Positions 36,758 through 45,018 of a DNA stretch of 64,000 nucleotides are shown here, piece by piece. The notes below the pieces were generated by a model that worked only from the letters and a program-made list of their open reading frames with translations, was not told the origin of the DNA and made no database searches. How positions within the stretch are numbered: the stretch's first letter is position 1; each line of letters opens with the position of its first letter. The DNA is taken from the NCBI RefSeq assembly GCF_003293695.1, contig NZ_CP029556.1:1932001-1996000 (forward strand). The letters are read 5' to 3'. The position numbers were made by a program, and so were the translations under genes. Source of the DNA: Lysobacter oculi (lineage in GTDB: Bacteria; Pseudomonadota; Gammaproteobacteria; Xanthomonadales; Xanthomonadaceae).

Positions 36758-37933
36758 TCAGGCGTCGGCGGGTTGCCAGATACGGTTCTGCGGGTCGAGT
36801 TCGGTGGTGTCCATCACCTCGCCGCGCCAGCCGAAGCCGCAGATCGCCATCACCCCCTGCGCCATCGGCTGCAGCGCGAAGGCGTCTTCCAGCGGCTTCT
36901 CGTTGATGGCGGCGGTGATGAAGGCACCCAGCCCGGCCTCGGTGGCGGAAAGATAGAGCGTCTGTGACAGGTGGCCGCTTTCCAGCGCGATGACGCGATA
37001 GCCCTTCTTGTGCTGACGGTACTTCCAGAACGTGCGGTCGTAGCGCGGCACCAGCAGCACCATCGCGTGCGCGTTGGCGAACCAGTGTTGATGGCAGACC
37101 GCCACGCTGGCCAGTTCGTCCAGCGGCATCGCCGGCGCGGGCAGCGGCGCCAGCCGATGGCGCACGCAGTCGTAGTGGTAGAGGCCGGGCGCGATGCCTT
37201 CCACATGCCGCAGCAGGCAATACGCCTCCACCGGATGCAGGCCACCACCGGATGGGCTGGTCTTCTTGAGGAAGGTGGTGTCGGGCGCGCCGTCGATGCG
37301 GCCCTGCGCGGCGAACACGCGCTGCATCAGCCGCGCGAACACCGGCAGCGGCAGCGGACGTTCGGCATCGAAGTTGCGGCAGGTCACGCGCGCGAGCAGC
37401 ACCTCGTCGAAGGCGTTGCCCGGCGCGCGCGGCAGGTCGATGCCGGCCGCCGCATCACCATCGGCATACGATTCCGGCGGCGGCGGCCCCAGCACCTGGC
37501 GCATCTCCGGCACGGTCTCGGTGCCCAGGTCCTTCATCGCCTGCACCGCGTCGTTGTCGTCCCAGCGGGTGAAGGCCTGCAGCGTCGCGCCGAGCGGATG
37601 CCAGTGCAGCGCGCGCAGGTGCTCGTCGCGTTCGCGCCAGTGCGCATGGGCGCGGCCCTTGCCGATCAGCAGGCCGGCTTTCAGCAGGCGCCGCCACACC
37701 GGACGGGCGGCTTCGGGCAGGTCGCGGGTATCGGTCCAGGCATGCGCGCCGACCTGGCCCAGCAGGGCGCAGGCGTCGGCATCGATCTCCACTTCCTCAC
37801 CGATGTGCGGCGCCAGCGCGATCCAGCGCCGCTGCGCGGACAGGCCATCGCCACCGGAGAGCAGATGGGTCAGGTCGAAGGCGAGCGTTTCCCGCGGCTC
37901 GATGTAGAGCACGGCGCACCGGCGCAGCTGCAT
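36758..37933 (-). CDS. SagB-related FMN dehydrogenase, putative RiPP peptide-maturation dehydrogenase
   Basis: 391-aa nitroreductase-fold enzyme of the SagB/ThcOx type. SagB enzymes oxidise azolines to azoles in microcins and streptolysin S. C-terminal domain (about 175-391): VTCRNFDAERPLPLPVFARL (FMN-contacting Arg), TSPSGGGLHPVEAYCLLRHV (hallmark SagB motif) and LGAFITAAINEKPLED. The N-terminal 100 residues (IEPRETLAFDLTHLLSGGDG) may be a small helical recognition domain. Start MQLRRCAVLYIEPRET at 37933 was preferred to an upstream extension that overlaps the peptide gene. It resembles the family described as putative peptide maturation dehydrogenase in Xanthomonadaceae. No YcaO-type cyclodehydratase lies nearby, so the reaction on the peptide is unknown. 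Confidence 0.85.
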   Translation of the reverse strand: MQLRRCAVLYIEPRETLAFDLTHLLSGGDGLSAQRRWIALAPHIGEEVEIDADACALLGQVGAHAWTDTRDLPEAARPVWRRLLKAGLLIGKGRAHAHWRERDEHLRALHWHPLGATLQAFTRWDDNDAVQAMKDLGTETVPEMRQVLGPPPPESYADGDAAAGIDLPRAPGNAFDEVLLARVTCRNFDAERPLPLPVFARLMQRVFAAQGRIDGAPDTTFLKKTSPSGGGLHPVEAYCLLRHVEGIAPGLYHYDCVRHRLAPLPAPAMPLDELASVAVCHQHWFANAHAMVLLVPRYDRTFWKYRQHKKGYRVIALESGHLSQTLYLSATEAGLGAFITAAINEKPLEDAFALQPMAQGVMAICGFGWRGEVMDTTELDPQNRIWQPADA

Positions 37934-37969
37934 GGGGTTCTCCGCGTGATTGCGCCCGCACGATAACCG

Positions 37970-37998
37970 TTGCGTGTGCCCCATCCCAGACCTACAGT
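37970..37998 (+). promoter_or_regulatory. Sigma-70-like promoter for the putative RiPP precursor
   Basis: -35 TTGCGT (37970-37975), 17-bp spacer and -10 TACAGT (37993-37998), ending 38 bp before the precursor ATG. The same 103-bp region carries the leader of the divergent dehydrogenase. Confidence 0.5.
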
Positions 37999-38036
37999 CG
38001 GCATTCCGGCCCGGGGGGCCATGAGGGGAAACACCG

Positions 38037-38366
38037 ATGGCAACGAAAAAAAGCCTGAAGTCCGAAGCCCTGAGCCCGAAGGTGGCCGACCGGCTGCTGG
38101 AACTGCTCGGCACCGACACCGAGTTCCGGCGCCTGATCAAGAAGGATCCGCAGGCCGCATTCCTGCAGGCCGGTTACAAGCCGTCGAAGGAAGTGGCCGC
38201 GGGCACCCTCGGCGCAGCGTGGATGTGCTGCGACATTGACCGGATCGCCCCGAAGGCGAACATCGAAGCATCGCGCGAGCAGCTCAAGAGCATGTTGACG
38301 GGTGGCATGGGGCAGTCGCCCATCGCACTGACCCTGTCGGCCAGCCCGCGCAAGCTCAGCAAGTAA
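38037..38366 (+). CDS. Putative NHLP-related RiPP precursor peptide
   Basis: 109-aa protein with the look of a ribosomal peptide precursor. Residues 11-50 are a leader related to the nitrile hydratase alpha-subunit family (LSPKVADRLLELLGTDTEFR, then IKKDPQAAFLQAGY). Next come AAWMCCDIDRIAP with adjacent Cys64-Cys65, a charged helix (ASREQLKSMLTGG), and a small Ser/Leu-rich end (QSPIALTLSASPRKLSK). Gly89-Gly90 could mark leader cleavage. I recognise it as the mod_pep/NHLP-related putative peptide family that travels with the SagB-related dehydrogenase and the cyclase beside it. Good ribosome-binding site (GAGGGGAA) before ATG 38037. No maturation chemistry or activity can be stated. Confidence 0.8.
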   Translation: MATKKSLKSEALSPKVADRLLELLGTDTEFRRLIKKDPQAAFLQAGYKPSKEVAAGTLGAAWMCCDIDRIAPKANIEASREQLKSMLTGGMGQSPIALTLSASPRKLSK

Positions 38367-38382
38367 GGCCTGGCCGCACCGC

Positions 38383-40830
38383 TCAGTTCGCGGCGCGTTT
38401 CGCCAGATACACGTAGGCGGGCTGCTGGCACCAGCCACAGCCCTGCTCCCCATACAGCCGCCCGCGACCGTAGGCGTCGCTTTGTCCCGCTCCCGTCGTC
38501 CGCCCGCGCGCCGGCTGGCGGGCGGCAAGCGCCACGGAATATGGCGCATTCGATGGCACCGGCAGCGAAGCCCCGCGCGCTTGCGTCAAATACTCAAGCG
38601 CGCGGGAAAGCTCGGGCACGAAGGAATCGGTGAGCTTCGAGCAGGCGGGCGCCGCGTGTGCCTTGACGGTGTTGGCGGCATCGAGATCGCCAGTGAGCCC
38701 GAAGAACAGCCCAGCCTGCAAGGCGGTGTAGCAATTCGTGGAAAGTTCCGTCGCAGGCACACCCGTTTCCTTGGGGAAGGACAGCGCCAGCATCCGCTCC
38801 AACACCTGCCGGGCTTCGCGCTTTTCCCCTGCGGCCACGGCAGCGACCGAATGTACGAACAGGGCACCCTGTCGCACCGTCCGGGTCAATGAAGGCGCCT
38901 TGCTGATGAGCCGCGCCCTGTCCAGCGCCGCCTGGGTGTCACCCATGTCGAGCGCGATGGAAACATCTTCGTACGTGACGCCATCGTCCAGCTGCACGTT
39001 CGCGGCACGGTAATCGAGCTTGGCCTGCTGGAAATCACGCAGGGCGGCATGACTGCGCGCCAGGCCGATGTCTGCCGAAGGCAGGCCCAGCGCGCGCGCG
39101 CTGGCATAGGCGATGACTGCATCCTTCGGGCGGTCCAGACCCAGCTGGTTGAAGCCCACCAGCTGCAGGACCTTGGCCCTGGTCGGGTTCTGGGCTTTCT
39201 GGGCCCGTTGCGCATAGGTCAGCGACTGCCCGAACAGACTGCGCTCGGCCAGCACGTAACCCATGTTCATGAGCGCCGGAAAATCATCGGGATAGACCTC
39301 GGACAACTTCTTCCAGGCTTCGAGCTCGCCCGCAGGGTGGTCGAAACGCGCGAGCCAGGCATCCATGTACAGCTTGTCGCGTGCGGCAAGCCTGGCGGAC
39401 AGCGCCGCGCCCTTGCGCAGATAGGACTCGGCCTCCACCGAAAGTCCCTGGGCATTCAATGCCCTCAGGCCACCCAGCCACGCCATCGCAAAGGAGGCGT
39501 CCAGGCTGATGGCGGTATCGAACAGCCGCTTCGCCTTGGGGTAATCGCCCTCGTCAAAGGCCTGCTGTCCGAGCGCATATGACTTCAGTGCATCGATATT
39601 GCTGGTGGTCACCTGCGGCAATGGTTTGGAATCGCGCTCGATCGAGGCCAACGCCTCGCCCAGCTTGCCGCGCAGGGCGCCGGTCACCGTGTCGACTGAA
39701 TCCAGCGCCGAGCCGACGCCACGCCCGTCCGCGCTTTCGACATACACAGTGGACTGCGTCCGTGGATCCACCACCTCGGCGCTGACGCGCAGTCGGCCAC
39801 CCACTTCCGAGACCATCGGCAGGATCACCGCGCGCACGCCGTCGCGCACCGCGATCTCGGAGGCGATGGCGCGGTCGATGGCGGTGCCTTCCGGCTTCTG
39901 CATGCGCTGCAGGGTTTCGCGCGCCTTGAGGTCGGACAGCACGTTGACGTAGCGCGACTGCTCCAGGCTGATGCGGAAGGCCTGTTCCAGCGATTCGTCC
40001 AGGCGCGGGTCGCCGGTCAGGTTGCGCAGGTCACCCATCACCACCCAGTCGCGCTCGGCGAAGGCGATCGCCGGCTCGGGCTTCATCGCATACCAGCCGC
40101 CGATGCCGAGGCCGGCCAGCAACACCGCTTCGGCCACCAGCGACGCCGGGCGCCGCCACAGCGGCAGGTCGCGCCAGGCCTTGGGGCCGTTCTTGGGCAT
40201 GCGCAGCGGGGCCAGCCCGGCTTCGCCCACCTCGTGCACTTCCTGCTTGCCGGGCACGCCCTTGAAGCACCAGTGGCCGTGCGACTTCCACAGCAGGTGT
40301 TCGCCGCGCTCGCCCAGTTCGCGGGCGGCGCGATGCGCCAGCGGTTCGGCGATGGCGGACACCAGGATCTGGCCGGGCCGCGCCAGCGTCATCAGGCGGG
40401 CGGCCATCGGTTTGGTCAGGCCTTCCACTTCCAGCGGCTTGGCGCCCAGCTGGACCGCCTCCACGCTGTTGCGCCAGGTCAGCACCTCGCCCACGTGCAG
40501 GCCGGCGCGGGCGCGCAGTTCCACGCCATGGCGGACACCGACGCCCTTGAGCGCCTTCATGTAATCGAGCGCGAAGCCGAGCCCGTCGATGGGCCGCTCG
40601 AACAGCAGCAGCAGGCCATCGGAACGGTCAATCAGCCGGCCGCGCCAGCGCTGCTGCAGTTCCAGCACCACGCGGTCCAGGTCGCGGAAGATCTGCGCGG
40701 CGGCGGTGTCGCCCCGTTTCTCGGTGATCTCGGTGGAGTCGCACAGGTCGGTGAGCAGCAACGTGCGCAGCAGCGGCGTGTCGTCCGTGCTGGCGCTGGC
40801 CGCAGGCATCGGGCGCGGCTGGGCGTTCAT
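38383..40830 (-). CDS. Putative peptide-modification-system cyclase (class III cyclase + TM + TPR)
   Basis: 815-aa membrane protein. Residues 18-205 are a class III nucleotide cyclase domain: TLLLTDLCDSTEITEKRGD (metal Asp28), GRLIDRSDGLLLLFE (Asp71), ARAGLHVGEV. Where active enzymes have VN-x-AAR, this has KPMAARL (140-146): the Arg is kept, the transition-state Asn is lost, so activity is doubtful. One TM helix (about 229-248) follows. The C-terminal half is periplasmic or cytosolic, first with a TolB-like/ADP-dependent fold region (WVVMGDLRNLTGDPRLDESL), then TPR-like helical repeats (about 440-730), ending in a Cys-x-x-Cys (GCGWCQQ, 798-801). I recognise the family seen with NHLP-related peptides. 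ATGA overlap with the upstream GGDEF gene; converges on the precursor (16 bp). Confidence 0.82.
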   Translation of the reverse strand: MNAQPRPMPAASASTDDTPLLRTLLLTDLCDSTEITEKRGDTAAAQIFRDLDRVVLELQQRWRGRLIDRSDGLLLLFERPIDGLGFALDYMKALKGVGVRHGVELRARAGLHVGEVLTWRNSVEAVQLGAKPLEVEGLTKPMAARLMTLARPGQILVSAIAEPLAHRAARELGERGEHLLWKSHGHWCFKGVPGKQEVHEVGEAGLAPLRMPKNGPKAWRDLPLWRRPASLVAEAVLLAGLGIGGWYAMKPEPAIAFAERDWVVMGDLRNLTGDPRLDESLEQAFRISLEQSRYVNVLSDLKARETLQRMQKPEGTAIDRAIASEIAVRDGVRAVILPMVSEVGGRLRVSAEVVDPRTQSTVYVESADGRGVGSALDSVDTVTGALRGKLGEALASIERDSKPLPQVTTSNIDALKSYALGQQAFDEGDYPKAKRLFDTAISLDASFAMAWLGGLRALNAQGLSVEAESYLRKGAALSARLAARDKLYMDAWLARFDHPAGELEAWKKLSEVYPDDFPALMNMGYVLAERSLFGQSLTYAQRAQKAQNPTRAKVLQLVGFNQLGLDRPKDAVIAYASARALGLPSADIGLARSHAALRDFQQAKLDYRAANVQLDDGVTYEDVSIALDMGDTQAALDRARLISKAPSLTRTVRQGALFVHSVAAVAAGEKREARQVLERMLALSFPKETGVPATELSTNCYTALQAGLFFGLTGDLDAANTVKAHAAPACSKLTDSFVPELSRALEYLTQARGASLPVPSNAPYSVALAARQPARGRTTGAGQSDAYGRGRLYGEQGCGWCQQPAYVYLAKRAAN

Positions 40831-41894
40831 GCCACCGTTTCCCGCACCGGCGCGACGTGGACCACCGGCGCGTCGGGTTCGTGGATTTCGAAGCCATCGC
40901 CGCCGCGCGCCTTGACGCGGTAGAGCGCGGCATCGGCGCAGGCGTACCAGCCCTGCCAGTCCTGCGCCGGGTCGATCATGCAGCCGCCCACGCTGAGGCG
41001 GCAGATCAGCGGCGGTTCGCCGTTCATTTCCCACAGCGCGCGGGCGGTGGCGACCAGGTAGTCGGCCATCCGCGCCAGGTCGTCAGGCTGGTCGAGGCAG
41101 GCCAGCACGCAGAATTCGTCGCCGCCCAGCCGTGCCGCCACTTCGACCGAGCCGGTGATGGATCGCAGGATGTGCGCCACGCTCTGCAGCACGCGGTCGC
41201 CGGCGATGTGGCCGTAACGGTCGTTGACGTCCTTGAAGGCATCGCAGTCGATGATCAGCAGGCCGCAGCTGTCCAGGCTGCCCAGCGCGCGACGCTGGTC
41301 CACCATCGCCACGAAGCCGCGGCGGTTGCACAGGCCGGTCAGGTCGTCGGTGCGGGTGAGTTCCTGGGTGCGGGTCAGCCGGTCGGTGGCGTCGCGCAGG
41401 GAGTCGAGCGCGGATTGCAGGTCGCGGTTGCGCCGGCGCAGGCTGTGCATCAGCGACTGCTCGTTGTCCACTACCCGCATGATGGCGCGATGCAGGAAGC
41501 CCGCCACGCAGCGCGGGTCCTCGGCCAGCAGGTTCTGGAAGGTGCTGTGGTCGAGCTCCAGCAACACGCAGTCGTTCACCGCGCGGGCGGTGGCGGAACG
41601 CAGGTGGTCGCCGATCAGCAGGCCCAACTCGCCGAAGAAGCCGCGCGCGCCGAGCTGCTTGAAGAATAGGTCGTCGCCGAACACCAGTTCGACCACGCCC
41701 GATTCCACGATGTACATGGTGCGGCCGCTGTCGCCTTCGGCGAACAGTTGCTGGCCGGCTTTCAGGGTGCGGCGATGCGCCTGGCTGGCGAACAACGCGA
41801 ACTCGGTTTCGCCGACCACATAGCTGTCCCGCGCGGGAACCCGCACGGGGGCTTGGCCTTCATTCGAAGAAACGCGAGCGCTGCGACTATCCAC
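40827..41894 (-). CDS. cNMP-binding/GGDEF protein coupled to the cyclase
   Basis: About 355 aa. N-terminal Crp-type cNMP-binding domain: AGQQLFAEGDSGRTMYIVES, then GFFGELGLLIGDHLRSATAR, which keeps Glu and Arg of the phosphate-binding cassette. A short helical linker leads to a GGDEF domain: TRTDDLTGLCNRRGFVAMVD, IDCDAFKDVNDRYGHIAGDR, ARLGGDEFCVLACL. The GGDEF signature is exact; no RxxD I-site precedes it, so product inhibition is unlikely. Together: a cNMP-controlled c-di-GMP synthase. The stop overlaps the cyclase start (ATGA at 40827-40830). Start chosen at GTG 41894; a TTG at 41942 opens a longer frame but lies upstream of the likely -10 element. Confidence 0.85.
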   Translation of the reverse strand: MDSRSARVSSNEGQAPVRVPARDSYVVGETEFALFASQAHRRTLKAGQQLFAEGDSGRTMYIVESGVVELVFGDDLFFKQLGARGFFGELGLLIGDHLRSATARAVNDCVLLELDHSTFQNLLAEDPRCVAGFLHRAIMRVVDNEQSLMHSLRRRNRDLQSALDSLRDATDRLTRTQELTRTDDLTGLCNRRGFVAMVDQRRALGSLDSCGLLIIDCDAFKDVNDRYGHIAGDRVLQSVAHILRSITGSVEVAARLGGDEFCVLACLDQPDDLARMADYLVATARALWEMNGEPPLICRLSVGGCMIDPAQDWQGWYACADAALYRVKARGGDGFEIHEPDAPVVHVAPVRETVA

Positions 41895-41921
41895 GCATCC
41901 TGCCCACCCCAATAGACGCTG

Positions 41922-41930
41922 AATATAGCA
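41922..41930 (-). promoter_or_regulatory. Extended -10 promoter of the cNMP-GGDEF/cyclase operon
   Basis: On the minus strand TGCTATATT (41930 to 41922) is an extended -10 element. A weak -35 (TTAAAG) lies 17 bp upstream. Transcription would begin near 41915, about 20 bp before the proposed GTG. A nearby TTGACA (41942-41937) is spaced only 9 bp from the -10 and cannot be its -35. Confidence 0.5.
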
Positions 41931-41957
41931 CCTGAATGTCAACCCTTTAAGCAGACC

Positions 41958-42005: not shown

Positions 42006-43301
<1,296 letters not shown>

Positions 43302-43356: not shown

Positions 43357-45018
<1,662 letters not shown>

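Follow-up and report, generated by a model that had tools for sequence, protein, structure and literature searches.

The window analyzed here (64,000 nucleotides of the Lysobacter oculi genome, NZ_CP029556.1, positions 1,932,001 to 1,996,000) carries a cassette of four neighboring genes. They encode an NHLP-type precursor peptide, a SagB-like dehydrogenase, a class III nucleotide cyclase joined through a membrane helix to a TPR sensor, and a GGDEF protein that binds cyclic nucleotide monophosphates (cNMP). We found that within genera the catalytic domain of the cyclase is constant and that sensor, precursor and dehydrogenase vary together as linked types. In close pairs of loci the C-terminal part of the precursor (the core) is shown by sequence comparison to follow the sensor. 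The cassette is probably a peptide-signaling system resembling staphylococcal agr, in which a processed peptide would gate a receptor guanylate cyclase. The covariation of the sensor with the peptide end points to the peptide as the signal so far missing from a known pathway for biofilm formation and virulence.

In the Xanthomonas locus we distinguished six core types (15, 6, 5, 1, 1 and 1 loci), and the core is near-constant inside a type. The genus of genome G159 is presumably Xanthomonas, judging from cNMP domains up to 97% identical to Protein Data Bank (PDB) entry 5h5o; the domain was found in 29 of 35 genomes of this genus. Among the 28 full Xanthomonas loci (L204, with a cyclase open reading frame (ORF) of 364 aa, was excluded from this test), sensor identity was 0.820 within and 0.381 between peptide types, with ranges that do not overlap. 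The corresponding values were 0.775 and 0.438 for the dehydrogenase, 0.919 and 0.899 for the GGDEF protein and 0.939 and 0.920 for the catalytic domain. None of 5000 label shuffles reached the contrast between the sensor and the catalytic domain. The loci L090 and L157 have identical catalytic domains (100%) and GGDEF proteins with 99.4% identity; their sensors are 30% and their dehydrogenases 33% identical. Their DNA is 97.2% identical until about 0.8 kb into the cyclase gene and 99.2% identical from about 0.25 kb beyond the dehydrogenase gene, which leaves a variable island of about 3.5 kb within otherwise 97–99% identical DNA. The left break, defined as the end of BLAST similarity, was located in 186 pairs (113 from Xanthomonas, 73 other) at median codon 312 (415 outside Xanthomonas); the membrane helix ends at codon 249. 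The closest other sensor lies outside the genus for four Xanthomonas types (A, B, F and, by a margin of 0.01, E) and inside it for C and D.

Pair statistics were obtained from identity tables of 154 complete loci out of 167 with a full-length cyclase. Loci without any one of the four genes were excluded, L002 and L003 were left out of the genus counts, and where several precursors were present only that nearest the cyclase was entered. The precursor was split at its conserved Cys into leader and core. Loci with a short dehydrogenase ORF and otherwise complete genes were retained and lower the tables; 13 of the 14 pairs with a kept sensor and a different dehydrogenase involve one of them, L201. 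In the 856 pairs whose catalytic domains are at least 0.85 identical, Spearman's rho was 0.86 for sensor and dehydrogenase, 0.79 for sensor and precursor, 0.77 for dehydrogenase and precursor, and 0.14 for the catalytic domain and sensor. Within genera (754 pairs, 19 genera, 2000 permutations inside genera) sensor and core were correlated with rho 0.80, a value reached in none of the permutations (null maximum 0.28); rho was 0.70 after removal of Xanthomonas and 0.61 in the 123 pairs without overlapping gene tails. The within-genus rho of dehydrogenase and core was 0.74 (0/2000). The core was correlated with rho 0.19 both with the catalytic domain (14/2000) and with the GGDEF protein (0/2000).

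In the 304 pairs whose catalytic domains are at least 0.93 identical, partial correlations were 0.53 for sensor and core, 0.13 for sensor and leader, 0.05 for dehydrogenase and core, and 0.20 for dehydrogenase and leader. Natural recombinants, taken as pairs in which identity is at least 0.93 for the catalytic domain, at least 0.80 for the dehydrogenase and below 0.65 for the sensor, were found seven times in three genera, five of them in one genus (an example is L048/L052). In all seven the leader is kept (0.83–0.97) and the core is different (0.47–0.66). No pair combined sensor identity below 0.5 with core identity above 0.75. The window and its genus mate L126 differ mostly in the same parts: identity is 0.45 for the sensor and 0.41 for the core, and 0.72–0.84 for the GGDEF protein, catalytic domain, leader and dehydrogenase. 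Out of 140 loci, the nearest neighbor belonged to another genus once for the GGDEF protein, in 3 cases for the catalytic domain, and in 25 for the sensor, 39 for the core, 33 for the leader and 21 for the dehydrogenase.

We searched 247 genomes of the family and 14 control genomes with the NCBIfam profiles TIGR04511, TIGR04509 and TIGR04510 (cut-offs of 240, 34 and 400 bits). Matches over cut-off were revealed in 150 of the family genomes for the cyclase, in 148 for the dehydrogenase and in 151 for the precursor, and in none of the controls for any of the three, a contrast that chance would by no means produce; about 60% of the sampled family genomes carry the cassette families. In a class-wide sample of 229 genomes, 49 gave some match to TIGR04511, 46 of them below cut-off, and the three over cut-off all belong to the same family as the window. 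Neighborhoods were then compared in 153 loci: the window, two named records and 150 fetched regions, of which 146 were taken around cyclase matches and 4 around matches to the dehydrogenase or precursor. The exact order GGDEF> cyclase> <precursor dehydrogenase> occurs in 104 of these 153, the GGDEF gene lies directly 5' of the cyclase gene in 138, and cyclase, precursor(s) and dehydrogenase> are arranged in this way in 127. A precursor directly follows the cyclase in 140 loci, always on the opposite strand. This co-conservation supports the proposal of the first-pass annotation, made from the letters of the window, that the four genes form a unit joining peptide maturation to nucleotide second messengers.

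The positions given there for the four genes were confirmed by our reading of the window and by NCBIfam and Pfam scans (Table 1), and so were the assignment of three products to the families of NHLP-related peptides, peptide-maturation dehydrogenases and associated cyclases (each over its cut-off), the SPSGGGLHP motif of the dehydrogenase, and the ATGA at 40827–40830 in which the GGDEF and cyclase genes overlap. The cyclase had been called a peptide-modification cyclase; its membership of TIGR04510 holds, and it belongs to the nucleotide cyclases, not to the enzymes that cyclize peptides. The longest frame of the GGDEF gene begins with TTG at 41942, but relatives of about 350–360 aa make the GTG at 41894 a more likely start.

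Table 1. Parts of the cassette, in window positions (pLDDT, predicted local distance difference test; FMN, flavin mononucleotide)
Feature	Positions	Strand	Basis
SagB-like FMN dehydrogenase, 391 aa from start MQLRRC	36758..37933	-	TIGR04511, 541.9 bits
Divergent gap between precursor start and dehydrogenase start, 103 bp; likely shared promoter region	37934..38036	.	
Whole precursor, 109 aa	38037..38366	+	TIGR04509, 66.7 bits
Precursor, NHLP-type leader part, codons 1-63	38037..38225	+	TIGR04509; conserved columns
Precursor, core region, Cys64 to stop; C-terminal end most variable	38226..38366	+	Alignment
Tail-to-tail gap between precursor stop and cyclase stop, 16 bp	38367..38382	.	
Class III nucleotide cyclase, membrane helix and TPR sensor, 815 aa, putative XC_0250 orthologue	38383..40830	-	TIGR04510, 930.1 bits
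Predicted periplasmic sensor, alpha/beta domain and TPR superhelix; hypervariable part	38386..40074	-	Model, pLDDT 90.9; variation
Predicted single membrane helix, N-terminus in, C-terminus out	40084..40140	-	Hydropathy and charge
Cyclase catalytic domain, near-constant within genera	40147..40830	-	Identity comparisons
cNMP-binding GGDEF protein, putative XC_0249 orthologue	40827..41942	-	PF00027 cNMP_binding and PF00990 GGDEF

An alignment of 185 precursors revealed an NHLP leader with invariant Leu24 and Arg31 (window numbering) and, behind it, a conserved LA(S/P)K..I..AR..L segment; the C-terminus is variable and shows a number of distinct patterns. A Cys occupies one column in 134 of the 185 and stands near that column in 150. 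The first-pass annotation had pointed to adjacent Cys residues in the window precursor; the family match stands, and the pair is no family feature. We rejected it as the modified site, since 'CC' occurs in 16 of 187 precursors and another 16 of the 187 have no Cys at all. The cyclase of the window has a C-terminal CGWC motif at codons 798–801; its two Cys residues recur in 39 and 38 of 151 relatives. A redox link between the peptide Cys and this CxxC was likewise discarded as not general.

The model of the dehydrogenase (pLDDT 95.6) has McbC, BmdC and ThcOx as its nearest folds, and both the nitroreductase fold of azoline oxidases and the FWKY motif are present. A YcaO profile search of the window genome, a single contig of 2.59 Mb, gave no match; the same profile, run as a control, found matches in 5 of 14 genomes. 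In the family YcaO was over cut-off in 13 of 247 genomes, in none of them near a cassette. Since no YcaO was found in the genome, azole chemistry is unlikely, and we set aside a reading of the cassette as a cluster for thiazole/oxazole-modified microcins (TOMM). A dedicated exporter was also considered: the single C39 peptidase match of the genome, a 263-aa frame about 107 kb outside the window, is not linked to the cassette, and the search for exporters was confined to this family.

In Xanthomonas campestris XC_0250 synthesizes cyclic guanosine monophosphate (cGMP), and XC_0249 is a diguanylate cyclase that is activated by cGMP and raises the level of cyclic diguanosine monophosphate (c-di-GMP); loss of either reduces biofilm formation and virulence (PMC3770947). 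We met no signal for the guanylate cyclase in that paper; the words 'peptide', 'operon' and 'dehydrogenase' occur zero times in its main text. The best PDB match of the window GGDEF protein is the cNMP domain 5h5o_A, which we infer to be XC_0249, as the spacing of the cGMP-contact residues fits the published description; the EMBO J 2013 paper gives the structure code 4KG1 (PMC3770947). All seven contact residues that we checked are found in the window protein, and each is kept in 119–142 of 143 aligned proteins; the GGDEF motif is present as well. Five residues named for XC_0250 (D41, D71, L73, A150 and A161) have the same numbers in the window cyclase, and L157 is replaced by V157 (PMC3770947). 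From these comparisons the window GGDEF and cyclase proteins are taken to be orthologues of XC_0249 and XC_0250. The pathway from cGMP to c-di-GMP would thus be conserved at the cassette, with the activities of the window enzymes predicted. By the usual class III pattern, we take D28 and D71 of the window cyclase to be the metal-binding Asp residues, I67 to stand at the position of the substrate Lys, P141 at that of the Asn and R145 at that of the Arg. D28, D71, I67, P141 and R145 are kept in 150, 150, 141, 147 and 150 of 151 proteins. Other catalytic residues are assigned in the X. campestris paper, the alignment of which may deserve a second look (PMC3770947).

The flanking genes of XC_0250 and XC_0249 in X. 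campestris itself were deduced from close relatives. The precursor adjoins the cyclase in all 29 Xanthomonas loci, and in 26 of them the fetched stretch includes a dehydrogenase ORF of 386 aa or more. The other three have short ORFs (L040, 110 aa; L201, 218 aa; L204, 210 aa). In L040 (genome G231) there is no full dehydrogenase beside the precursor; the same contig has a partial profile match about 14 kb away.

Hydropathy analysis placed a membrane helix immediately behind the cyclase domain with a score of at least 1.6 in 165 of 167 proteins; the window cyclase, with 1.57, is just under this value. Positive charge is higher before the helix than after it in all 167, and no other helix-like stretch is present in 166. 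From the single helix and the charge asymmetry the sensor is predicted to be periplasmic. A PDB fold search with the sensor model revealed the peptide-binding TPR proteins Rap, NprR, LGN and KLC1 amid many generic matches.

Two genes of the same strand lie 5' of the cassette in the window, for isocitrate lyase (42006–43301, -) and malate synthase (43357–45018, -). Among the 150 regions, 128 (at least 28 genera) have a relative of the isocitrate lyase gene at this place and in the orientation of the cassette, so the cassette has long occupied a single chromosomal site; malate synthase relatives were found in 123 of the 150 fetched regions. In the genus of the window, matches over cut-off were present in 2 of 12 sampled genomes and the other 10 lacked all three families, which suggests that the cassette has often been lost there or was gained late. 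Two expanded loci, L171 and L173 (genomes G067 and G022), contain multiple precursors and multiple dehydrogenases and lack a GGDEF partner within the stretch. Palindromes resembling CRP/CLP sites, with two mismatches or fewer, were detected in the gap between precursor and dehydrogenase in 10 of 120 loci, against about 3.6 expected from simple shuffles; feedback of c-di-GMP onto peptide expression through such sites is possible. Scans of the window revealed nothing at Rfam gathering scores and no tRNA with ARAGORN.

We propose that the NHLP leader is recognized and that the precursor would be oxidized by the SagB-like dehydrogenase, probably in a reaction other than azole formation. The C-terminal core would be released, reach the periplasm by a general route, as no exporter is encoded in the cassette, and become the ligand of the TPR sensor on the membrane-bound guanylate cyclase, as the covariation implies. 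The state of the ligand would set cGMP synthesis, with the peptide acting as activator or inhibitor, and cGMP would bind the cNMP-GGDEF partner and raise c-di-GMP, following the precedent of XC_0250 and XC_0249 (PMC3770947). Sensor and core alleles, often together with the dehydrogenase, would be exchanged as a block and give rise to recognition types like those of staphylococcal agr, with the catalytic domain and the GGDEF partner staying in place. With convergent genes the end of the core adjoins that of the sensor, and a single exchange tract could take both. In 73 of 143 other loci the cyclase and precursor genes overlap at their tails, and there the last codons of sensor and core are on common DNA.

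Several observations weigh against a peptide ligand. Within genera, sensor and dehydrogenase (rho 0.83, 0/2000) are correlated at least as strongly as sensor and core, and the leader also varies with the sensor (0.72, 0/2000). In the 304 close pairs the partial correlation of the sensor with the dehydrogenase is 0.59 versus 0.53 with the core. In all 11,780 pairs the contrast is gone, with partial correlations of 0.21 for sensor and core versus 0.23 for dehydrogenase and core (sensor and leader, 0.08; dehydrogenase and leader, 0.24). One pair has sensor identity of at least 0.75 and core identity below 0.55, and the pairs in all these statistics share genomes and are not independent. Core and sensor are adjacent, so block exchange alone yields covariation, and breaks between them would be rare anyway. 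No exporter or protease gene was found in the cassette. TPR fold matches are generic, and a modeled fold by itself is no demonstration of peptide binding. X. campestris regained biofilm formation with the cyclase domain alone (PMC3770947); the sensor may therefore be inhibitory, or the assay may not have required it.

A rival explanation is linkage alone, with a sensor that detects some other variable ligand, and with the peptide and dehydrogenase as an output or as hitch-hikers of block exchange. The abutting or overlapping sensor and precursor genes fit this explanation, as does the covariation of dehydrogenase and leader with the sensor. However, in all seven pairs that retain the dehydrogenase the boundary of the exchange falls within the precursor, so that the core is taken and the leader stays; the coupling persists where tails do not overlap, and a different sensor was never seen with the same core. 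We regard linkage alone as unlikely. A bacteriocin-like ribosomally synthesized and post-translationally modified peptide (RiPP) that hits competitors, with the cyclase reading its level for autoregulation or protection, would agree with core types that vary as in antagonistic peptides and with the several precursors of some loci. Nevertheless, cores are near-constant inside a type, no immunity or export gene was recognized in the cassette, and the linked regulators in X. campestris act on biofilm and virulence (PMC3770947). We regard such a role as unlikely too. It is very unlikely that the precursor is an intact small adaptor, with no processed RiPP, that binds the sensor or dehydrogenase so that the latter reports redox or flavin state to the cyclase. 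Much of the post-leader part is indeed conserved (the LA(S/P)K..I..AR motif), the cassette has no protease, and we know of no reaction that such a SagB-like enzyme performs in the absence of YcaO. Yet the C-terminus is variable behind a conserved NHLP leader, and the sensor is predicted to lie across the membrane.

Returning to peptide signaling, we see about equal grounds for and against its widest version. It holds that the family uses a Gram-negative peptide communication with recognition types, in which an NHLP peptide modified by the dehydrogenase, in a YcaO-free peptide oxidation, is the ligand of the receptor guanylate cyclase; that convergent, often overlapping genes keep core and sensor exchangeable as one piece; and that the system is the input of the Xanthomonas pathway from cGMP to c-di-GMP, virulence and biofilm. 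The cassette offers a concrete candidate signal for the X. campestris guanylate cyclase, encoded next door in the Xanthomonas loci, and ties a curated but uncharacterized RiPP family to a characterized signaling pathway. If the proposal is true, Gram-negative signaling gains a peptide-gated guanylate cyclase with agr-like types, together with an oxidizing RiPP enzyme.

Comparison with known systems revealed both likenesses and differences. RRNPP receptors such as Rap and NprR are cytoplasmic and are not known to be fused to a cyclase; these two are among the fold matches of the sensor, but unrelated TPR proteins score equally high in that list. TOMM clusters with a SagB/McbC dehydrogenase share the dehydrogenase fold and the FWKY motif; they differ in having YcaO, which was not found in the window genome. 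All three members of the NCBIfam cassette (TIGR04509, TIGR04510, TIGR04511) were over cut-off here; their names give no pathway, and this work adds the GGDEF partner, the putative role of cGMP and the finding that sensor and core covary. XC_0250 and XC_0249 are likewise a cyclase-TPR and a cNMP-GGDEF protein from adjacent genes, with the cGMP-contact residues and most named cyclase residues kept (PMC3770947). The link to a peptide and dehydrogenase and the sensor types are new here, and the window proteins are known from their sequence. In the one open-access library that was searched we found no paper that joins this RiPP family with the cGMP pathway or reports such types. AgrB and a two-component system are parts of agr; the cassette has neither AgrB nor a two-component output, and cGMP and c-di-GMP would take their place. 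Moreover, its types were compared between species, not strains. In staphylococcal agr a hypervariable region extends across agrB, agrD and agrC (PMC10482373), and in both systems a hypervariable block covers a modifying enzyme, a peptide and a receptor sensor beside constant output parts. Thus, the cassette is agr-like in its working and is not a member of agr.

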